Shown: positions 2,671 to 23,577 of the stretch, piece by piece
Layout: each line of letters begins with the position of its first letter
Position numbering within the stretch: position 1 is the stretch's first letter
DNA from: Microcaldota archaeon
GTDB taxonomy: Archaea > Micrarchaeota > Micrarchaeia > Micrarchaeales > CABMGC01
Direction: 5' to 3'
Assembly: GCA_028866835.1 (NCBI GenBank)
Contig: JAGWHJ010000012.1
Span: 1-33,756, forward strand
Length of the DNA: 33,756 nt
The notes under the pieces: model-generated
What the model saw: only the letters and a program-made list of their open reading frames with translations
What the model was told of the DNA's origin: nothing
The model's database searches: none
Translations under genes and position numbers: made by a program

Positions 2671-2719
2671 CGATTTGTGGTATACCGAGATTAAACCGAA
2701 TATTTCAAACGTGATACAA

Positions 2720-3778
2720 ATGGCAACTTCAAAGAAAAAGGGCATCAACAAGGCAGAGAAGCCGGTTAGGGGTAGCGCAGCGAGCATTCCAATGGAAAAC
2801 GAGGAGGACTTGAAGCCATCGTTCGAGCCATCAGGAAGGCTTGGCACGATAGGGGGCGCACGGGAGCGTGAGGAGATAAGGAAGTGCCCAAGCTGCGGAA
2901 GCACCGACATCATATTCGACAATGAGAAGGGGGAGTACGTCTGCAACAACTGCGGACTGATAATAGAGGAGAACGTCACCGATGTAGGGCCCGAGTGGCG
3001 CGCGTTCGACACGGACCAGAGGAACGCACGTGCCAGGACCGGAGCGCCGATAAAGTACATGAAGCCCAACAAGGGCCTCGTTACTGAGATAGACATGTAC
3101 AACAAGGACATAAGGGGCACCAAGCTTCCTTCGAAGAGGCAGGCCCAGCTCTACAGGATGAGGAAGTGGCACAAGAGGGCGAGCATAGCGAGCTCGAGCG
3201 AGAGGAACTACCTCATCGCGCTTCCGGAGCTCAACCGCGTGGCGAGCTACCTGGGGCTTCCTGACAACATAAGGGAGCAGGCGGCGCTTCTCTACAGGCA
3301 ATGCGTAAAGAACAACCTCATCAGGGGAAGGCCAATCGAGACAGTGGTCAACGCAGCGCTCTATGCTACATGCAGGAGTGCGGGAATGCCAAGGACCCTT
3401 GACGAGATTGCGCAGATATCCTCGGTTCCAAAGAAGGAGATCGGGAGGTCGTTCAGGGTCATCGCCCATGAACTGGGTCTCAAGATACCGCTTACAGATC
3501 CTTCAAGCTACGTCCCAAGATATGTATCGGCGCTCAAGCTGAGCGGCGATGCGCAGGAGCGTGCGATGGTGCTCCTGAGGCAGGCCATGAAGAAGGGCCT
3601 TGTCAGCGGGAGGAGCCCGACCGGCGTCTCCGCGGCCGCGGTGTACATCGCCGGCGCCCTGGTTGGCGAGAGGAGGACGCAGAAGGAGGTTGCCGACGTG
3701 GCGGGAGTAACTGAGGTAACGATAAGGAACAGGTACCGCGAGCTGAAGAAGGAGCTTAACATAGATGTAAATCTATGA
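2720..3778 (+). CDS. tfb: Transcription initiation factor TFB (TFIIB homologue)
   Basis: General archaeal transcription factor that binds the TBP-TATA complex and the BRE and recruits RNA polymerase. The order is: an N-terminal zinc ribbon with C56, C59, C75 and C78; a B-reader/linker region with DVGPEWRAFD and TGAP; then two cyclin-like repeats (about 155-250 and 250-345), the second ending in the helix-turn-helix VADVAGVTEVTIRNRYREL. ATG 2720 is chosen because it directly precedes a Lys-rich MATSKKKG start; upstream codons to 2675 fall in the promoter and leader. The 352-residue protein has about 55 residues before the ribbon, longer than the very short N-terminus of typical archaeal TFBs. 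It overlaps the next gene by 4 bp (ATGA) and heads an apparent operon with a membrane protein, malic enzyme and aquaporin, an unusual context for a basal factor. Confidence 0.95.
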   Translation: MATSKKKGINKAEKPVRGSAASIPMENEEDLKPSFEPSGRLGTIGGAREREEIRKCPSCGSTDIIFDNEKGEYVCNNCGLIIEENVTDVGPEWRAFDTDQRNARARTGAPIKYMKPNKGLVTEIDMYNKDIRGTKLPSKRQAQLYRMRKWHKRASIASSSERNYLIALPELNRVASYLGLPDNIREQAALLYRQCVKNNLIRGRPIETVVNAALYATCRSAGMPRTLDEIAQISSVPKKEIGRSFRVIAHELGLKIPLTDPSSYVPRYVSALKLSGDAQERAMVLLRQAMKKGLVSGRSPTGVSAAAVYIAGALVGERRTQKEVADVAGVTEVTIRNRYRELKKELNIDVNL

Positions 3779-6309: not shown

Positions 6310-6348
6310 CCCTCCCTTCCCATACATACTTGCTGAGGAGTGGGCTTA

Positions 6349-9123
6349 GTGGTTGCATCTGCAAAAACGGTAAAGGCAAACGCCGACAAGAAATCTAAGA
6401 GGATGCAGACTGCGATAGAGTACCTGTCCATATATTCCTGGGCACTCATCATACTGATAATAGCGATAGTCGTCATCTCATATCTCGCCCTGAACAGGGG
6501 CAATACCGCCGAAACCTTCCTTCCCTCGACGTGCTACCTGAGCACGGAGCTTAACTGCCAGAACATAATCTTCATGTCCAACATGTCAGGCGCGAAGGCT
6601 CTCATAATCTTCAAGAACGACCTTCCCACCAACATCTCATTCGCGTCAAGCGCGTTCACCATAGTGCCGGGTTTTTCAGGCGCGTCGTACAAGGGCAATT
6701 GCTATCCTGCTAACGCCGTCCCCGGCTCCACCGTATCATGCACCGTCAATCTCGCCAACTACAACGCGCATCTCGGGGCGCAGCTCAATCCAAAGCTGGA
6801 GGTCAGCTACAAGCTCTGCGCAAACGGAAAGTGCGCTTCGCAGGTGAACACGTCGGGGAGCTCCACGGTGTACGTATCCTCCCTTGTCTCTGTTCGCGGC
6901 GTGACGCTGTACACGAACACCCGCACCGGCGATGTCTCGGTCAACGGCGTCCCGTACCCTTCCGGAACGACGGTGCTCTTCATAGGGAACCATACCTACG
7001 GCATCTCCGCTGTACCCCCGCCTAAATACTCTTTCGTTAACTGGACCTATTCATCAAGCATAACCCTCTCGTCTGCGGCTGCGCAGACGACAAACGCGAG
7101 CACGTCGTCAAACGGAACCATAACCGCAGTGTTCGTCGGTCCTCCTGGCGTCTCGCTCACCGCGCAGGAGACGAACACCACGCAGGGAAGCCATGACCTT
7201 CTGACCGCGCAGATAAACGGCGGCACGAGCCCCGACACTGTCGTGATATGCGGCAACTCTTCGGTGCTCGGCGCAATGAACAGCGGTTGCGTCGACCCTA
7301 ACGGCTATCTCGCGTCAAGCGGAGCATCGGGCTCCGGCACTTACGACACTGTAGGCCTGCCTTCTGGATTGTACACGATGCAGGCATGCGATGCCACGTA
7401 CCACAGCGAGACCGGCAAGACGGAATGCAGCAGCACGCTGAACCTTGTCATAGAGCCAGGCGTCAGCATATCGATACAGAGCACACAGGTTCTCATCGGC
7501 CAATCCGACATAGTAACGGGCAGTGCCACTAATGTATCAAACAATGTGACTGTGTGCGATGACTACAGCGGCCATGCGACATACTACGGCTGCGGCAACG
7601 TCGCTTACAACAAGAAGGCCGTATCGGGAATAGGGACGGCGAGCATCAACACCGACACCTATCCGCTGACATTCTACGGCAGGCTGCAGTTCGTGGCCTG
7701 CGACAGCTCCTTCTACAAGGCCACGGGAAGGCCCGACTGCACCGGCCCTCTCTCCCAGGACGTTTACGTAAAGCCCATCGTCACGCTGTCATTCTCCACT
7801 GGTTCCGCAACCTGGGGGTTGTCTGATCCTGGCACCGCGTACGTCAGGGACGGCGCCGGAAACATAGTGCCCGATACGGTGGTTATCTGCGGCACGTTCA
7901 ACTCGGGATCCGGGTATGCTGCGTGCGCAGCCCCGTACAACTACGGGCCGTATGCAAGCGGCACCGGCACTACCGCATGGGATGCAGGAACGGGCAACGG
8001 CTACGGCACATACACGTACGAGGCTTGCGACGCTTCATTCTACTACACGTGGGGCGTGCTCGACTGCAGCGCTCCGCAGACCGTTACCATAACCCCATTG
8101 ACGCTTACCGTCTCGATGTCGCCTGGCGGAGTGGTAGATCCATATGGCGTGTCATGCGTGGCAGCGAGATACTCGATATATCCGGGCAACGGCGGCGGCG
8201 CTTCGGGGCAGACGTGCGCAGGAGCAGGTTACCCCGACCCGTCAAGCCCGCAGTACGTGCCCTACGGGGCAGTTGTCGACTACGTCGCAACCGACATAGC
8301 GGGCCCGAGCAGCTGGGAATCGCCGTCAAGCGGATGGAGCCTGGCGGGCTGGTCAACCGGAGGCAATGCAAACCCCAGCGATCCCGAGATACCTATGACC
8401 GGGTCGGCGAATATCCAGGGCACATTCTATCCTTGCCTCACGACAGGCGCGGACTTCGGCGACCAATACGGGCCTGTGTACGCTGCCTGGGTGACTGGCG
8501 CAGGCTGCTATCCTTACGGCTCGACTGTTGGGGTGACGATAAAGCCGCCAGGAGGGAAACAGGTTTGCAGCGGATGCCTTGGCCTTTGGTATGACGGATG
8601 GGGCATAAACACGCTGCAGGTCTACGGAAGCTTTTCCGGAAATTCAGGCGGCTGCAACACCCCGTCACCTGTCGTCACTAGCGATTTCGTCACCTATGGG
8701 TACGTGCCTGCCTGCACCATATATTTCACCATAACCGGGCCTACATACGCCTACGAGCCCTTCATGCCATGCTATACTGCGCAGACGGGATCTTCAGGGC
8801 ACGGCCTTGTCCAGGTCAGCGGCGGCGCTTTTGTCAGTGATACGGATCCCCAGTGCAGTGCCTACGGCGACACTGCATACATAGGAGCGAGAGGCACCGC
8901 AGGGCATTCGTTCAACTTCTGGGACTGCTATAACGACGGAATGCAGCTCGCGGCATACGGCTATCAAACCCCCGTACCTGTCTACAATGCCTATGGATAC
9001 CAGTGCTATGGCGACCAGTACGACTGGAACACGCTGATAGATTACGGCACGTACGGAGGGCAGGCCGCTTCTGGGTCATTCACGCTGACTAATCCTGCCA
9101 TAGAGGTTGCGTACTTCACTTAG
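6349..9123 (+). CDS. Very large Cys-rich surface protein with a class III (pilin/archaellin-type) signal peptide
   Basis: The N-terminus KSKRMQTAIEYLSIYSWALI is an archaeal class III signal peptide: a basic stretch, a short QTAIEYL motif and then a hydrophobic helix. Such proteins are cut by a prepilin/preflagellin peptidase and assemble through the helix. Archaeal pilins are usually 100-300 residues; this protein has about 924. After the helix come roughly 135 residues, an InlB B-repeat-like domain (about 185-265, with YSFVNW and ITAVFV), three tandem Cys repeats of about 107-110 residues (about 265-366, 367-476, 477-584; each with VVICG-like, ACDAS(F/Y) and DCS-like cysteines), and further Cys/Gly/Tyr-rich domains to the end. 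GTG 6349 is preferred because GAGGAG lies 8 nt upstream; GTG 6340 overlaps it. Likely a cell-surface adhesin or filament tip, probably disulfide-bonded and glycosylated. Confidence 0.85.
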   Translation: MVASAKTVKANADKKSKRMQTAIEYLSIYSWALIILIIAIVVISYLALNRGNTAETFLPSTCYLSTELNCQNIIFMSNMSGAKALIIFKNDLPTNISFASSAFTIVPGFSGASYKGNCYPANAVPGSTVSCTVNLANYNAHLGAQLNPKLEVSYKLCANGKCASQVNTSGSSTVYVSSLVSVRGVTLYTNTRTGDVSVNGVPYPSGTTVLFIGNHTYGISAVPPPKYSFVNWTYSSSITLSSAAAQTTNASTSSNGTITAVFVGPPGVSLTAQETNTTQGSHDLLTAQINGGTSPDTVVICGNSSVLGAMNSGCVDPNGYLASSGASGSGTYDTVGLPSGLYTMQACDATYHSETGKTECSSTLNLVIEPGVSISIQSTQVLIGQSDIVTGSATNVSNNVTVCDDYSGHATYYGCGNVAYNKKAVSGIGTASINTDTYPLTFYGRLQFVACDSSFYKATGRPDCTGPLSQDVYVKPIVTLSFSTGSATWGLSDPGTAYVRDGAGNIVPDTVVICGTFNSGSGYAACAAPYNYGPYASGTGTTAWDAGTGNGYGTYTYEACDASFYYTWGVLDCSAPQTVTITPLTLTVSMSPGGVVDPYGVSCVAARYSIYPGNGGGASGQTCAGAGYPDPSSPQYVPYGAVVDYVATDIAGPSSWESPSSGWSLAGWSTGGNANPSDPEIPMTGSANIQGTFYPCLTTGADFGDQYGPVYAAWVTGAGCYPYGSTVGVTIKPPGGKQVCSGCLGLWYDGWGINTLQVYGSFSGNSGGCNTPSPVVTSDFVTYGYVPACTIYFTITGPTYAYEPFMPCYTAQTGSSGHGLVQVSGGAFVSDTDPQCSAYGDTAYIGARGTAGHSFNFWDCYNDGMQLAAYGYQTPVPVYNAYGYQCYGDQYDWNTLIDYGTYGGQAASGSFTLTNPAIEVAYFT

Positions 9124-9162
9124 GCAATTCCTTGTTGGGCACAATTCCGCCAAACGGAAAGG

Positions 9163-9173
9163 CTTTTAAATTT
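9163..9173 (+). promoter_or_regulatory. TATA box for the secreted protein at 9246
   Basis: CTTTTAAATTT predicts a start near 9194. A small inverted repeat, TTCCG-CCAAA-CGGAA (9145-9159), lies directly upstream of its BRE and could be an operator. Confidence 0.5.
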
Positions 9174-9245
9174 CGGATGCAATATTCATATACTTAGGTA
9201 TGCACTGGGATCTGGGGGGGGTGCATCATCTGAGAGGGCCATTCT

Positions 9246-10205
9246 ATGGCACAAAAAACGCGCCTGGCTGGCAGGCACATAGAAAGGGAAATAGAGAGGG
9301 ATGCAAGGATCTCCGACATTGCGTCTAGTGTCAGGGGCGGCATTGGAAATGCCAGCAGGGGATTATTAAAGAGATTAAGGAGGGGCGCGGGGATCGGCAC
9401 AAGGGCTGCAACTTTGTCTGCGGCCGCCCTGTTCGTGCCAGTGCCTCCAACTGCCGCAGTAGCCCAGACGGAGCCTCCAGTCGCAATAAAGATCCTTCAC
9501 CGGGACATGAATTACAGCTCATTCGGAATCCAGTTTTCCGTGATCTCTCCTCAGCCAGGCCCGATCACCTTCTCCTTATCGTACGAGCCGAAGGGATCAA
9601 GCACGCAGGCTTCTCTCGGCAGCTGGCTTAACGGCGCAAACCAGCTATCGCAGAGTGCCCAGCTGGGCTACCACGACCTCAAGGGCATGGCACCTGGGTC
9701 AACATACGTCATCATGGTCACTGCAACATATCAACTTTACACGCAAGGCAAGTACGGGTCCTACCCGACGCCGGGCAGCAGCCCCGTGCTTATAGGCATC
9801 GCATCAACCGACCTGACCGAGCCCAAACGGGGCCAGCTAAAGAATCCAAAGAACATCAGCGTCTATGGCGGTTTGGGAGGCAATGCAAGCATATCGCAGT
9901 CAGCAAGCAACACCGTAAAGGGGAGGAAACACAAGGTGATAGAGGTCTTCCTGCAAAACAGGCTGCCGAAAGTGGGCGATAGGGACCGGATAAAGATAGA
10001 GGCATTCGGCCACAGGGCCAGGGGCACCGTTCTCAGGCTCCAGATAAACCACCATACGGTCATGGTAAGCCGCAACAGGCTTATCGCGCACTACACTCTC
10101 ATCCCAACGCAGGGCGGTCCCGAGACCATAACGGCAACGAACCTCACCAGGGGGAACAGGGCTTCGGTAACCCTCAATGCGGATGCATACAAGCATGCCG
10201 GTTAA
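9246..10205 (+). CDS. Secreted beta-rich protein with an unusually long N-region before its hydrophobic stretch
   Basis: 319 residues, family not recognised. The first 50 residues are strongly charged (RHIEREIERDAR, KRLRRG); a signal-like hydrophobic stretch follows (ATLSAAALFVPVPPTAAVAQ, about 57-76) with a plausible cleavage site at AVAQ. RLRRG is twin-Arg-like but not a clean Tat motif. The remainder has a fibronectin III-like region (GPITFSLSYEP, LKGMAPGSTYVIMVTATYQ, about 105-175) and a basic C-terminal beta domain (RIKIEAFGHRARGTVLRLQI, GPETITATNLTRG) with no Cys. It is probably extracellular and may associate with the surface protein encoded just upstream (inference). An in-frame TGA at 9231 excludes earlier starts; GAGAGGG about 8 nt before the ATG can serve as the ribosome site. 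Confidence 0.75.
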   Translation: MAQKTRLAGRHIEREIERDARISDIASSVRGGIGNASRGLLKRLRRGAGIGTRAATLSAAALFVPVPPTAAVAQTEPPVAIKILHRDMNYSSFGIQFSVISPQPGPITFSLSYEPKGSSTQASLGSWLNGANQLSQSAQLGYHDLKGMAPGSTYVIMVTATYQLYTQGKYGSYPTPGSSPVLIGIASTDLTEPKRGQLKNPKNISVYGGLGGNASISQSASNTVKGRKHKVIEVFLQNRLPKVGDRDRIKIEAFGHRARGTVLRLQINHHTVMVSRNRLIAHYTLIPTQGGPETITATNLTRGNRASVTLNADAYKHAG

Positions 10206-10230
10206 CGCTGTCACAAGACGGAATGCCAAG

Positions 10231-10240
10231 GTTTAAATAA
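10231..10240 (+). promoter_or_regulatory. TATA box for the tandem Alba gene
   Basis: GTTTAAATAA predicts a start at about 10262 and a leader of about 35 nt to ATG 10297. Confidence 0.55.
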
Positions 10241-10296
10241 TATCAGCGCGATTAATAGTAGGGGAACTCAGTAGTGTCCGCTTAACGGTCGATAAC

Positions 10297-10917
10297 ATGG
10301 CAGAAGAAATCGAGAGCAGCAGGTCGGAGGGTGCAATGCCTGAGAATGTGGTGCTCATCGGAAAGAAGCCGCCAATGAACTACGTGCTCGCAGTGGTCAC
10401 GCAGTTCAACAACGGCGTCAAGTCCGTGAAGATACGCGCCAGGGGAAACGCCATCTCAAGGGCTGTCGACGTCGCCGAGATCGCAAGGCACAGGTTCGTC
10501 CAGGACCTAGGCAATCCGAGCAGCGAGAGGATAAACATCGGCTCGGAGGAGATAACGAACGAGGACGGGACCAAGTCAAAGGTAAGCTCCATAAGCATAA
10601 TACTCAGCAAGAGCGCAGGCGCAAAGGTCGCGGACGTTCCGCAGGACAGCGTTGTCCTGATAGGAAAGAAGCCGCCGATGAACTACGTGCTTGCCGTAGT
10701 CACGCAGATAAACGGTGGCAAGGATTCCGTGATGATAAAGGCAAGGGGAAACGCCATCTCAAGGGCCGTTGATGTTGCCGAGATCGCAAGGCACAGGTTC
10801 GTCCAGGACCTAGGCAATCCGAGCAGCGAGAGGATAAACATCGGCTCCGAGGAAATCACGAACGAGGACGGCACAAAATCAAAGGTCAGCTCGATAGAGA
10901 TAACGCTCTCAAAGTAG
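10297..10917 (+). CDS. albA: Tandem (two-domain) Alba chromatin/RNA-binding protein
   Basis: Alba (Sac10b) is an abundant archaeal DNA/RNA-binding chromatin protein, normally about 90-100 residues and working as a dimer. Here two full Alba domains are fused in one 206-residue chain. Both contain [19 protein letters not shown], the RNA/DNA-contacting KKP Lys pair, [21 protein letters not shown], and the [16 protein letters not shown] hairpin. Their period is 101 codons, and 71 bp (10474-10544 and 10777-10847) are identical in DNA, so the duplication is recent or maintained by gene conversion. The chain is likely a covalent pseudo-dimer. Two starts are possible: ATG 10297, or ATG 10336, which follows GGAGG (10326-10330) by 5 nt and would remove a 13-residue acidic N-tail. 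Monocistronic, with its own TATA box and a T-rich end. Confidence 0.95.
10474..10544 (+). repeat. 71-bp exact direct repeat, copy 1 (Alba domain 1)
   Basis: Identical to 10777-10847, offset by 303 bp. It encodes the AEIARHRF-to-NIGS part of each Alba domain; the rest of the two domains has diverged, including at synonymous positions. Confidence 0.9.
10777..10847 (+). repeat. 71-bp exact direct repeat, copy 2 (Alba domain 2)
   Basis: Second copy of the segment at 10474-10544, in the C-terminal Alba domain. Confidence 0.9.
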
Positions 10918-10921
10918 CAAC

Positions 10922-10930
10922 TCTTTTTCT
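10922..10930 (+). terminator. Possible T-rich terminator after Alba
   Basis: TCTTTTTCT begins 4 bp after the Alba stop. Archaeal termination commonly uses such T tracts without a hairpin. Only a weak signal. Confidence 0.35.
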
Positions 10931-10950
10931 GCGGTCTGTGTATCTGCATG

Positions 10951-10960
10951 CTTTATATAT
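10951..10960 (+). promoter_or_regulatory. TATA box with a downstream AGACCTTA element
   Basis: CTTTATATAT predicts a start near 10982, 10 nt before ATG 10992. AGACCTTA (10970-10977) lies 7 nt past TTATATATGA; the same pair with a 6-nt spacer occurs before the gene at 32649. Confidence 0.6.
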
Positions 10961-10991
10961 GAGGCAATGAGACCTTAGTGCGTGATGATAT

Positions 10992-11681
10992 ATGCAGGCC
11001 CAAAGAACTTTGCGACCAAGGACTTATGTCGAATTTGATAGAGGTGACATGGCTAATGCCACACTACCAATGGCTGCGGGCAGAGACATAGGTGCCGCAC
11101 TAGGAATGCTGCCTTTCGGAACGACCTCCCTGAGGTTCTTCGAGAGGTTCGAGGTGCAACCTTCACTGGAGATTAATGGATCCAAACCCTTCCATCTGGT
11201 ACAAGGCGAACTTATTGTCGGAGACTTGAAAGGTCAGCTGCTCGGTGATGTAAGGCAGCAGACATACGTTGAGTTCCGCATGCCAGGCGCCCGCACAAGG
11301 GAGATGGAGAGCGCTCCTGTGCCAGTTGAAGGCAGAAGCCTAGCATCCATACTTGAGATGATGCCGCCCAGTGCGGTTGGGTTCAGGCTCTTCGACAGAT
11401 TCGAGACGGGGCACGGCAGCGGCAGGGCAATGAGCGCAAGGATCAACGAAACAGGCATATTCTATCCCGGCGGCAGGATAATGGACATCGAGGATGTGCG
11501 CCGCGAGGAACCAGAAGCAACGGCTCTTATCGCCAAGATGGAGGACGGTGACATTCCTATGATGGTAGAGGCGCGCCAGGTCGGCACGGCCAGGCCTGCA
11601 AGGCACACTTTTTATGGGCGGGATTTCGTATTCTCCGAGGAAAGGCTCAGGGAGCTTCGTCCTGCTTTGCGTCTGCTCTAA
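10992..11681 (+). CDS. Unknown soluble protein made of two tandem ~80-residue repeats
   Basis: I do not recognise this 229-residue protein. It has a clear internal duplication: residues 11-90 and 91-170 both begin TYVEF, continue with an (A/V)(A/E)GR(D/S)(I/L)(G/A)(A/S) helix, then LPFGTTSLRFFERFEV or MPPSAVGFRLFDRFET, and end in a short beta stretch with an (E/R)I(V/M)(G/D) core. The last 60 residues (EEPEATALIAKMEDGDIPMM onward) are not repeated. There is no signal peptide or TM helix and no Cys. The transcript is near-leaderless (10-nt leader). The fold may resemble a pseudo-dimeric small-molecule binding module, but nothing in the sequence fixes a function. Confidence 0.78.
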   Translation: MQAQRTLRPRTYVEFDRGDMANATLPMAAGRDIGAALGMLPFGTTSLRFFERFEVQPSLEINGSKPFHLVQGELIVGDLKGQLLGDVRQQTYVEFRMPGARTREMESAPVPVEGRSLASILEMMPPSAVGFRLFDRFETGHGSGRAMSARINETGIFYPGGRIMDIEDVRREEPEATALIAKMEDGDIPMMVEARQVGTARPARHTFYGRDFVFSEERLRELRPALRLL

Positions 11682-11701
11682 ATATGGCGGAGCGGAAACT
11701 A

Positions 11702-11720
11702 ACCTTTAAAGCCCTTTATA
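11702..11720 (+). promoter_or_regulatory. Two adjacent TATA-like boxes before aspS
   Basis: ACCTTTAAA (11702-11710) and CCCTTTATA (11712-11720). The second places initiation at about 11742, so the TTG at 11744 would begin a leaderless mRNA. Confidence 0.5.
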
Positions 11721-11743
11721 CTGCATGATAATAAGGGGTTTCC

Positions 11744-13045
11744 TTGGACACTTCATACAGGGACTACTACGTTTCGGAACTCGGCCCGGAGATGGACGGG
11801 AAGGAGGTGCGCATCGCCGGCTGGGTCCACGAGGTACGCAACATCGGCAAGATAGTGTTCCTAATACTCCGCGACCACAGCGGCCTCGCGCAGGTAATCG
11901 CAAAGGAGGGCACCGCAAGCGAGAAGCTTATGAAGGAGATGAACCTGCCGAAGGAGAGCGTAATCGCGGTGCGCGGCAAGGTGAAGAAGAACTCAGAGAG
12001 CAAGTACAACGGGATAGAGATAGAGCCGTCGGAGCTGATGGTTCTCAATCCTCTCTCATCGCAGATACCATTCGAGGTCACTGGCAAGGTCCCCGCAGAC
12101 ATCGAAGTGAGGCTTGACAACAGGCACATAGACCTCCGCAGGCTCGAGACGACCTCCGTGTTCAATATCCAGTCAACGATACTGAACTCCTTCAGGAGCA
12201 CCGCAATAAAAGCAGGGTTCAACGAGATACGCACCCCGTCCATAGTCGAGGCTGCAACCGAGGGCGGAGCCGACCTTTTCGGGATAAATTATTTCGAAAA
12301 GACTGCCTTCCTCGCGCAGTCGCCCCAGCTCTACAAGCAGCTTGCCGTCGTAGGGGGCATGGACCGAGTCTTCATGGTCGTTCCGGTCTTCAGGGCGGAG
12401 AAGCACAACACCGTCTACCATCTAAATGAGATAACGCAGATGGACATGGAGATGGGATTCGCGGATCACAACGATGCGATAGCGATGCTCAAGAAGGTCG
12501 TGAAGAACATACTTGCGGATGTATCGAAGAGGAACGCGGATGACCTCCGCAGGCTCGGCATCGAGCTGAAGAAGGGCAAGATCATAGAGATAACGTACAA
12601 GAAGGCGGTATCGAAGCTCAATTCGAACGGCATAAAGATAGAGTTCGGGCAGGATTTCAACCGCGAGCACGAGGAGATGCTCTGCGGCCTCCTTGGGGAG
12701 ATGGTCGTAGTCAAGGAGTATCCATCGAGCATAAGGGCCTTCTACAGCATGCCAAACCAAAAGGACAAGGAGATATGCAACAGCTTTGACATGCTCTACA
12801 AAGGCCTGGAGATCTCGAGTGGTGCGCAGCGTATACACCTCCCCGATGTCCTCATTCAATCGATCACTGCGCGCGGCCTGGATCCGAGCAACTTCGATTT
12901 CTACATCAATGCCTTCAGGCAGGGCGCGCCGCCGCACGCCGGATGGAGCCTGGGCCTCGAGAGGCTCACGATGAAGATAACCGGCATGAGCAACATACGC
13001 GAGTGCTCGATGTTCCCAAGGGACAGGGTAAGGCTCAAGCCGTGA
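11744..13045 (+). CDS. aspS: Aspartyl-tRNA synthetase, probably non-discriminating
   Basis: Charges tRNA with aspartate. The 433-residue protein has the archaeal/eukaryotic layout: an N-terminal OB anticodon-binding domain (about 1-105), then the class II catalytic core with AQSPQLYKQL, motif 2 FRAEKHNT...HLNEITQMDMEM, EISSGAQRIH, and motif 3 GWSLGLERLT near the end. In Thermococcus AspRS a Trp in GWVWEV enforces specificity for tRNA-Asp; here the same place is His (H29 in GWVHEV), the residue found in non-discriminating enzymes that also make Asp-tRNA-Asn. This implies Asn-tRNA is finished by a GatCAB-type amidotransferase elsewhere. TTG 11744 is the only start that keeps the conserved N-terminus and fits the TATA spacing. 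It begins an operon with nth and EndoQ. Confidence 0.95.
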   Translation: MDTSYRDYYVSELGPEMDGKEVRIAGWVHEVRNIGKIVFLILRDHSGLAQVIAKEGTASEKLMKEMNLPKESVIAVRGKVKKNSESKYNGIEIEPSELMVLNPLSSQIPFEVTGKVPADIEVRLDNRHIDLRRLETTSVFNIQSTILNSFRSTAIKAGFNEIRTPSIVEAATEGGADLFGINYFEKTAFLAQSPQLYKQLAVVGGMDRVFMVVPVFRAEKHNTVYHLNEITQMDMEMGFADHNDAIAMLKKVVKNILADVSKRNADDLRRLGIELKKGKIIEITYKKAVSKLNSNGIKIEFGQDFNREHEEMLCGLLGEMVVVKEYPSSIRAFYSMPNQKDKEICNSFDMLYKGLEISSGAQRIHLPDVLIQSITARGLDPSNFDFYINAFRQGAPPHAGWSLGLERLTMKITGMSNIRECSMFPRDRVRLKP

Positions 13046-20649: not shown

Positions 20650-21000
20650 TTGCCGCAGTACGGGCTTGAGATAGACGAGCGCGAAGCGAAGGAGATAGCA
20701 GGAGCTGGCGCGAAGGTCTTCGTCTTCTGGAACAGCCAGCACGACCTCGAATACGTCGAGCAGGTTCTCGGCGCCAGGCCCGGCAATGTCGAAGGCATGG
20801 ACATAGAGGCGGCAAGGCGCATAGTCATGGGGGGCGAGGCTGCCAGCGAGGTAAGGAAGATCGGCAGCCGTTTCGATGGCGCCGTGATAGTCTGTCCCCA
20901 TGGCAACACGTCAAGGAGGTTCGCAGAGGCGCTCTCCGCGGCCGGGATCAAGTCGTACAGCCTAAGGCGCGGACTCGAGGGCCTGAGGGGCAGGGCCTGA
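20650..21000 (+). CDS. Rhodanese-like small protein
   Basis: 116 residues. The last third, FDGAVIVCPHGNTSRRFAEA followed by LSAAGIKSYSLRRGLEGL, matches the rhodanese active-site strand, loop and following helix; C82 is the candidate catalytic or persulfide cysteine. The loop CPHGNTSR departs from the usual six-residue CRxGx(R/T/S) loop, and the first half is not a textbook rhodanese domain, so sulfurtransferase activity is uncertain and a Cdc25/phosphatase-like role cannot be excluded. Start is TTG 20650, preceded by AAAGGTG with a spacing of about 7 nt. Cytoplasmic; co-transcribed with the small membrane protein upstream. Confidence 0.7.
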   Translation: MPQYGLEIDEREAKEIAGAGAKVFVFWNSQHDLEYVEQVLGARPGNVEGMDIEAARRIVMGGEAASEVRKIGSRFDGAVIVCPHGNTSRRFAEALSAAGIKSYSLRRGLEGLRGRA

Positions 21001-21930: not shown

Positions 21931-22680
21931 TCAGAGCTCCTTCTCGAGTATCTCGTTCGCCACGGCCAGGTCGGGGTTTATTATCTGCTGGTTGCTGCCC
22001 TTCGCTATGTCCTGGAAGTACCCCTCCATGTCCTTGTCCCTAACTATGACGCGTATCCTTGTCTTAGGGCCCGAAAGGCTCCTTGCGGCAAGGAAGACGT
22101 ACATTGCTAGCGTCTTGTCCTGCAGGTCTATCACGACGCTCTCTGCGAAGCCGATGCCGTACCTCTTTATCGCCTCCTTTGACGTGAGGTTCGTGACGTG
22201 TATCGGGTAGTTGAGCTCGCGCAGCTCCTCGAAGCGCTCCCTGCTGTTTGTCAGCACCACGAACCTCCTCTTCTTCGCGGCCAGCTGGCTGGCGAGATAC
22301 ATGTTGACGTTGTCTATGCCGAAAAGCACCACATGTCCCCTCAGCTTCCTCGCATCCGAATCTGATATGCCTCCCGTCAGCTTGTTTATCCTTCCCTCCA
22401 TCACATCGGTCGTTACCATCGTTAGTGCACCTATAAATATGCTTATGCCCGAAAGCTCGAGAACAATCGTGAATGCCTTTGCAGTTCCGCTGACCGGTAT
22501 TATGTCGCCGTAGCTGTTGGTCGAGAGCGTCGATATCGTGTAGTATATTGAGTTGAGCAGGTCAAGATGGCTCACGTTGAAGCCGCCGTACAGGCTCAGT
22601 GCGTAGCTGACTATGCTGCCCACGGCGATTATGATTGCGGCTACCGATGAATATAGCAGGAGCCTCTCCAGCAGTCCCAT
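21931..22680 (-). CDS. Two-TM ion channel with an RCK (TrkA-N) domain and altered selectivity filter
   Basis: Laid out like MthK-type potassium channels: TM1 (about 8-30), pore helix and filter (YYTISTLSTNSYGDIIPVS, about 46-64), TM2 (about 70-92), then a cytoplasmic RCK-N Rossmann domain from about 114 (GHVVLFGIDNVNMYLA). The canonical filter T-V-G-Y-G-D is here T54-N-S-Y-G-D59, so a hydrophobic Val and the first filter Gly are replaced by Asn and Ser. K+ selectivity may be altered or lost. At 249 residues there is no RCK-C domain, so gating may differ from MthK. Start ATG 22680 is leaderless relative to the TATA box at 22701-22712. Confidence 0.88.
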   Translation of the reverse strand: MGLLERLLLYSSVAAIIIAVGSIVSYALSLYGGFNVSHLDLLNSIYYTISTLSTNSYGDIIPVSGTAKAFTIVLELSGISIFIGALTMVTTDVMEGRINKLTGGISDSDARKLRGHVVLFGIDNVNMYLASQLAAKKRRFVVLTNSRERFEELRELNYPIHVTNLTSKEAIKRYGIGFAESVVIDLQDKTLAMYVFLAARSLSGPKTRIRVIVRDKDMEGYFQDIAKGSNQQIINPDLAVANEILEKEL

Positions 22681-22725: not shown

Positions 22726-23535
22726 TCACTCCGAAGGGATCCTTGGCAGCAACGCCGAAGATTTGTCTAGCGATATGGCCGCAGGGTTGCGCGCAGCTCC
22801 ATTCTCCCTCTTCTCCGTGTACATTTCGGCATCAGCCTCTTTTACCATCCTTTTCGCCAATCTCAGTGGATTGGAGCCGCCGACGACCCTGCCGTCATCG
22901 CCTCTCCTTGTAAGGGTGGTTATGCCTGCAGAGAACTCCACATAGATCATGACGCTGTTCACCTGGATTGGGGCCTGTGCCAGTGCCTGCCTTGCGCTTT
23001 TGACGAAAGCCTCTGCGCCCTTTGCGTCGGCTCCGGAAAGTATCACCACGAACTCATCCCCACCGATCCGTGCAACTGTGTCAGTGGGCCTGGATGTGGC
23101 CTGAAGGACCGCTGCCACGTGCTTGAGCATCTCGTCCCCAGCGTCGTGCCCGAGGTCCGGATGGTCATTCACCGCTTTGAGTCCATTGAGGTCCAATAGC
23201 ACGAACGATAGCGGCCTTTGATCGCCTCTGCTGCGCCTGCTTATCTCGAGCCTCGCGTGGTCGTACATGTAGCGCCTGTTGCCAACGCCGGTGAGCTCGT
23301 CTATGTAGGCAACGCTCTCCAGATGCCTTATCCTGCCATCCTTTGACCTGCTGTCGCGTTCGAGCCTGCTTATCTTTATCTCCCTGTCCGCCAGCTCGCC
23401 CTCAAGCTCAGCTATGCGCTGGTCCTTTGCATTATCCCTTCTTGCAAGCCCTTTCAAGCCGGTGGCTTCTGCGCCATTCCGCTGGCCATTTACTTCAGTA
23501 GTAGATGCAGCCTTACCTGCCCGCCTAACCGCCAT
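22726..23535 (-). CDS. GGDEF-domain diguanylate cyclase (cytoplasmic, coiled-coil N-terminus)
   Basis: Predicted to make c-di-GMP from two GTP. The catalytic GGDEF motif is intact (G158-G-D-E-F162 in ARIGGDEFVVIL), as are IDELTGVGNRR (about 78-88), the metal/substrate segment LLDLNGLKAVND (D115) and LGHDAGDEML, and KEADAEMYTEK near the end. R149-P-T-D152 lies exactly five residues before GGDEF, the position of the allosteric inhibitory I-site. Residues 35-75 (RIAELEGELADREIKISRLE) form a coiled coil, as expected for a dimerising cyclase, and no sensor, TM or HAMP domain is present. ATG 23535 is used because initiation from the TATA box at 23578-23589 lies downstream of TTG 23574. GGDEF proteins are rare in archaea, and I see no EAL, HD-GYP or PilZ protein in the window. 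Confidence 0.93.
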   Translation of the reverse strand: MAVRRAGKAASTTEVNGQRNGAEATGLKGLARRDNAKDQRIAELEGELADREIKISRLERDSRSKDGRIRHLESVAYIDELTGVGNRRYMYDHARLEISRRSRGDQRPLSFVLLDLNGLKAVNDHPDLGHDAGDEMLKHVAAVLQATSRPTDTVARIGGDEFVVILSGADAKGAEAFVKSARQALAQAPIQVNSVMIYVEFSAGITTLTRRGDDGRVVGGSNPLRLAKRMVKEADAEMYTEKRENGAARNPAAISLDKSSALLPRIPSE

Positions 23536-23577
23536 AAAATTATGTCCTCTATCAATTGAATAAATACGTCGCAAGTA

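Follow-up and report, generated by a model that had tools for sequence, protein, structure and literature searches.

The window, by which we mean the whole stretch of 33,756 nucleotides analysed here, carries on its minus strand a gene for a coiled-coil GGDEF protein, with a potassium channel gene lying just downstream. The features of this locus are as follows:

22726..23574, minus strand: coiled-coil GGDEF protein, 282 aa from TTG, or 269 aa from ATG at 23535
23305..23466, minus strand: single 54-residue N-terminal helix, a predicted parallel coiled coil (AlphaFold model, heptad profile)
22804..23310, minus strand: GGDEF domain (Pfam match, profile search)
23080..23091, minus strand: RPTD, the RxxD primary I-site (from the translation; also conserved in relatives)
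23050..23064, minus strand: GGDEF signature of the A-site (from the translation)
21931..22680, minus strand: two-TM K+ channel with an RCK_N/TrkA_N domain, 45 bp downstream of the GGDEF gene
20650..21000, plus strand: 116-aa protein (cluster c2) with no Pfam or NCBIfam match

The open reading frame matched the GGDEF profile PF00990 with 116.4 bits (E 1.4e-33, cut-off 23.8) over positions 1-157 of 161, and reached 118 bits with NCBIfam TIGR00254 (cut-off 37.4). Its longest form begins at a TTG 13 codons before the ATG at 23535, the latter being the start used in the preliminary description. The translation contains LLDLNGLKAVND, GHDAGDEML and RPTD-TVARI-GGDEF, so that RxxD and GGDEF are separated by exactly five residues, the spacing already reported in that description. 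With active-site positions mapped to PleD D327, N335, D344, GG[D/E]E and K442, the A-site of the 282-aa protein was found to be complete, comprising the metal Asp (D128), the guanine-contact Asn and Asp (N136, D147), GGDEF itself (G171-F175) and the C-terminal Lys (K255). Structurally, the AlphaFold model has a mean pLDDT of 87, the GGDEF part lying mostly at 92-98, and its N-terminal helix, which spans residues 24-77 in the numbering of the 269-aa form (pLDDT ~92-98), runs into the DELTGVGNR turn, with no further domain on the protein. The GGDEF fold is supported by ~170 aligned columns at 1.9-2.3 Å to PleD and to a T. maritima GGDEF domain, and the top Foldseek matches were SiaD (7e6g, E 4.7e-15), followed by WspR and the GCN4-WspR fusion 3i5c. 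The complete cyclase domain with I-site described previously is therefore upheld by profile score, A-site and RxxD, and the coiled coil, taken there to be the only added domain, corresponds to the one modelled helix. Cyclase activity of the window protein is predicted from residues alone.

Whether archaeal GGDEF genes are real at all was left open in 2018 (Galperin 2018, PMC5847659) and again in a 2022 review (PMC10086821), and bacterial contamination of an archaeal bin might be held to explain such a gene. Bins of this kind can indeed be contaminated: a GGDEF-EAL fusion from another genome of the phylum (G201, L097/L117), lying on a 6.4-kb contig that is likely a contaminant, groups with Pseudomonadota. 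The GGDEF gene of the window, on the other hand, shares its contig with characteristic archaeal genes:

2675..3778, plus strand: transcription factor B (TFB), NCBIfam 444 bits, cut-off 384
10297..10917, plus strand: two-domain Alba protein, AlbA 229 bits, cut-off 90
11744..13045, plus strand: archaeal-type aspartate--tRNA(Asn) ligase (AspRS), 536 bits, cut-off 353

The 16S fragment of the bin fits the archaeal model best (1151 bits), and the GC content of the GGDEF gene, 56%, compares with 54% for the window. Its third-position GC is 63%, against 73-78% in five other genes tested, a mild hint of either foreign origin or weaker codon selection. Elsewhere on the contig, positions 6340-9123 of the plus strand encode a 927-aa protein without a Pfam or NCBIfam match. 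Contamination, on which the preliminary description had made its reading depend, was thus checked through contig genes and 16S; it is ruled out for the window by the archaeal gene content of the contig, and as an explanation of the gene it is left with a negligible probability, all the more so as the gene occurs in 44 of 79 related genomes, often on contigs of more than 20 kb with a common gene order.

These related genomes come from a survey of 295 genomes of the phylum, including the 79 of the window's own family (f1); a related family is referred to as f2. GGDEF matches above the cut-off were present in 109 of the 295 genomes, and within f1 any GGDEF match was found in 17 of 27 genera, with at least 25 of the f1 genes on contigs over 20 kb. 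Among the 53 distinct f1 and f2 proteins, 37 keep every tested active-site residue, 35 of these also having RxxD, while the remaining 16 have lost at least one; in some of the latter lineages the domain may perhaps serve as a binding module only. One syntenic slot of the gene is common to at least six genera (g9, g15, g16, g18, g19 and g22); in most of them HMG-CoA reductase lies upstream, and on the downstream side follow genes for a HemK-like methyltransferase, an AP endonuclease and a HerA-like ATPase. Genera g17, g23 and g42 have the gene in separate slots of their own. Relatives of the c2 protein adjoin the GGDEF gene in several f1 genera. At one locus (L126, G035) several paralogous genes of cluster 7 (7629-12602, ~200-260 aa) lie beside GGDEF and have motifs resembling those of kinases (HGDINWGNV in relatives). 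For the GGDEF gene, dN/dS was 0.08-0.35 in close pairs whose dS is unsaturated. Together, gene order, dN/dS and residue conservation indicate that the gene is under purifying selection and in use in the lineage. It is also dispensable, since many f1 genomes are without it.

Regarding its origin, a domesticated transfer had been suggested. A transfer is plausible, but this is no isolated case: a gene held by 44/79 genomes of the family and 109/295 of the phylum, syntenic and under purifying selection, is not a lone recent arrival, and that scenario is ruled out by the family survey. The transfer was thus plausibly old, dating at least to the ancestor of part of the order. The GGDEF phylogeny proposed in the preliminary description answered this in part. 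Constraining the f1 and f2 sequences to one clade was not rejected (AU p 0.918), the constrained tree being 42 lnL better than the free-search tree, and neither was a single clade of all archaeal GGDEF sequences minus one, the G201 GGDEF-EAL fusion (p 0.736). The window protein itself has no firm place in the tree. Of the 103 inner branches, 52 fall below 80; on so weak a backbone only the one-clade tests are informative, and an attempt to name a bacterial donor failed.

None of the usual partners of such a cyclase was found in the family. Profile searches of the 79 f1 genomes returned no EAL, no HD-GYP (HD_5) and no MshEN domain, and PilZ was found in none of the 295 genomes of the phylum, where the only EAL match (1/295) was that of the probable contaminant contig in G201. 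The earlier statement that the window lacks EAL, HD-GYP and PilZ was correct, and a search of its whole bin (G000, 88% complete) for these three was likewise empty. A search for the c-di-GMP-I riboswitch gave 0/79 matches with its control silent too; the controls of all other partner searches were positive. Gaps in draft genomes are a very unlikely cause of 0/79. HD-GYP exceeded the cut-off in 24 of the 295 genomes, all outside f1, and the full HHExxDGxGYP motif was present in three of six loci read (L122-L124, in G202, G168 and G136), which belong to families of this archaeal class other than f1. Genomes that combine HD-GYP with GGDEF, such as G202, may possess a complete pair for making and breaking c-di-GMP. 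Judged by its gene content, f1 would produce c-di-GMP, or has at any rate retained what is needed to produce it, with none of the degrading and receiving domains that we tested.

The missing EAL, HD-GYP, PilZ and MshEN proteins could also be understood if the GGDEF domain no longer made a signal, having become a sensor of c-di-GMP or GTP or a dimerising scaffold that takes up c-di-GMP from neighbouring bacteria or works together with the host. Sister lineages with degenerate motifs (GADEF, TGDEF, D344-to-N) would fit this explanation, as would a second, near-universal protein of the family:

4267-5481 of contig C23 in G000 (locus L221:4246-5574, minus strand): regulator with a winged-helix-like (wHTH) N-terminus, REC and a degenerate GGDEF domain

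This protein of ~400 aa has weak GGDEF matches, with NGDDF at the signature and without RxxD, and is very conserved (~60-70% identity). It is a close match to the WspR-like REC-degenerate-GGDEF regulator of Ca. Micrarchaeum (PMC5847659), and such a match is found in 69/79 f1 genomes, including that of the window; this resemblance points to Micrarchaeota as the probable phylum. It is possibly a nucleotide-sensing transcription regulator; its AlphaFold model is of low confidence (pLDDT 62). The window protein differs from it as a separate and intact family, whereas the regulator combines NGDDF and a lost RxxD with REC and the winged-helix-like part. Moreover, the window protein and most of its relatives keep the metal, base and catalytic residues, which a pure sensor would not need, and we consider a sensor or scaffold unlikely for the window protein.

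Diadenylate cyclase (DAC), the enzyme that forms c-di-AMP, is common in archaea. In f1 it was detected in only 3 of 79 genomes (G001, G048 and G050), with three control archaea positive; two of these three also have the GGDEF gene, with GADEF as its motif. The gap so left could be filled if the GGDEF enzyme made another product, be it 3',3'-cGAMP, c-di-AMP or a linear dinucleotide. Relatives in genus g23 (L160, L162, L163 and L164) have Asn in place of the base-contact Asp and RxxE in place of RxxD, and these proteins may use another substrate or be inactive. The window protein, by contrast, retains that Asp (D147, GHxxGD, here GHDAGD) and the Asn of AVND, and has no counterpart of the Ser of Hypr cGAMP synthases, the residue that promiscuous GacA-type enzymes carry at the base-contact position (PMC8041772). 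We therefore give a different product only a slim chance.

The near absence of a c-di-AMP cyclase also bears on the adjacent K+ channel, as the two genes might form a functional pair in which c-di-GMP from the neighbouring cyclase regulates the channel and so takes over the control of K+ that c-di-AMP exerts elsewhere. In the window both genes lie on the same strand across a 45-bp gap, four f2 genomes (genus g42) have the channel directly beside GGDEF in divergent orientation, and several f1 genera have it within ~6.5 kb. In the g42 loci (L174-L177), a prepilin/preflagellin peptidase-like gene, recognised by eye, lies directly behind the channel. The syntenic block of the channel, however, also exists without GGDEF (G031, locus L224), and the two genes are apart in most GGDEF-bearing genomes of g17, g23 and g24. 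The channel itself has RCK_N only and no RCK_C, and the window's copy, which sits on a very long branch, has an altered pore filter, STNSYGD rather than STVGYGD, unique among ~37 archaeal copies compared (the others being T[VI]GYG). The block without GGDEF weakens the idea that an operon of GGDEF and K+ channel is the chief explanation; a working pair has a small probability, and the link is only a lead.

We consider it probable, then, that the gene encodes a soluble, sensorless and product-inhibited c-di-GMP synthase, a genuine and long-kept gene inherited within the order whose signal is received outside the known receptor families. More than 300 BLAST hits for GGDEF in other archaea, many from DPANN and Asgard, have been mentioned in a single sentence, and two archaea tested chemically contained no c-di-GMP (PMC8646023). 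Diguanylate cyclase genes have also been counted, without detail, in pooled ultra-small bacteria and archaea (PMC9938205). In the open papers searched we found none that examines archaeal GGDEF proteins for their residues, synteny, selection or partners. The enzyme family itself is known, and the novelty lies in where it occurs: this archaeal lineage has a cyclase that looks intact and sensitive to feedback, alongside none of the partners we tested for. With the contig archaeal and the gene in about half of the family, archaeal c-di-GMP becomes directly testable, and these genomes offer a set in which new c-di-GMP receptors can be sought without a background of EAL, HD-GYP and PilZ. Because the usual binding and degrading proteins were not found, we propose a c-di-GMP circuit proper to archaea. 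In its widest form, an old, always-on and feedback-limited cyclase, retained for as long as the archaeal order has existed, would be coupled to new families of receptors and degraders, possibly including the RCK K+ channel, with c-di-AMP largely given up, a scenario that we put forward tentatively and regard as rather doubtful.

How such a cyclase could be active without a sensor may be read from its coiled coil. In the DgcR linker two registers have been described, a/d in the inactive and a/e in the activated state, and high activity has been reported for a GCN4-WspR fusion whose coil interface adopts the active register (PMC8041772). We counted heptads back from the DxLT turn in 43 archaeal proteins, using an alignment of uneven depth. 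In these coils one of LIVMF occupies position a in 47-74% (Leu-rich) and position e in 37-67%, and the d positions are charged, with LIVMF at 5-16% except in the last heptad (44%); the heptad pattern of bacterial control coils is weaker and less regular. The window coil has V, R, D, K and E at d and A, I, S, I and L at e, but K and R at two of its five a positions count against the register reading. Since Leu at a, a hydrophobic e and a charged d correspond to the activated register of DgcR, we infer a dimer in the active register with product feedback. Two copies would pair through the parallel coiled coil, poised 'on' in the activated register, and condense two GTP to c-di-GMP, with binding of this product to RxxD as the main brake. 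The product would act on receptors outside the PilZ and MshEN families and be removed by enzymes outside the EAL and HD-GYP families.

The closest known system is SiaD of P. aeruginosa (7e6g, NF038266), both the best fold match and the best named equivalog of the window protein. Both proteins consist of one N-terminal stalk helix and a GGDEF domain with a canonical I-site and no sensor. The stalk helices of SiaD form a parallel pair to which SiaC binds, and inhibition by c-di-GMP acts at the I-site (PMC8457831); the enzyme is inactive alone and switched on by SiaC, and a coil-binding protein may possibly also limit the archaeal cyclase, as SiaC does for SiaD. Yet the window protein is archaeal and misses the NCBIfam equivalog cut-off (99.4 vs 290 bits), so that it is at most SiaD-like in its working. 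With WspR and GCN4-WspR (3i5c) and with DgcR (6zxb/6zxc/6zxm) it shares a coiled coil immediately preceding the DxLT turn and an RxxD inhibition site, and the archaeal coils match the heptad positions of the DgcR linker. Natural WspR and DgcR shift the register of this coil by means of a REC domain, which the archaeal proteins do not have; the charged d positions of the archaeal coils would disfavour the inactive register.
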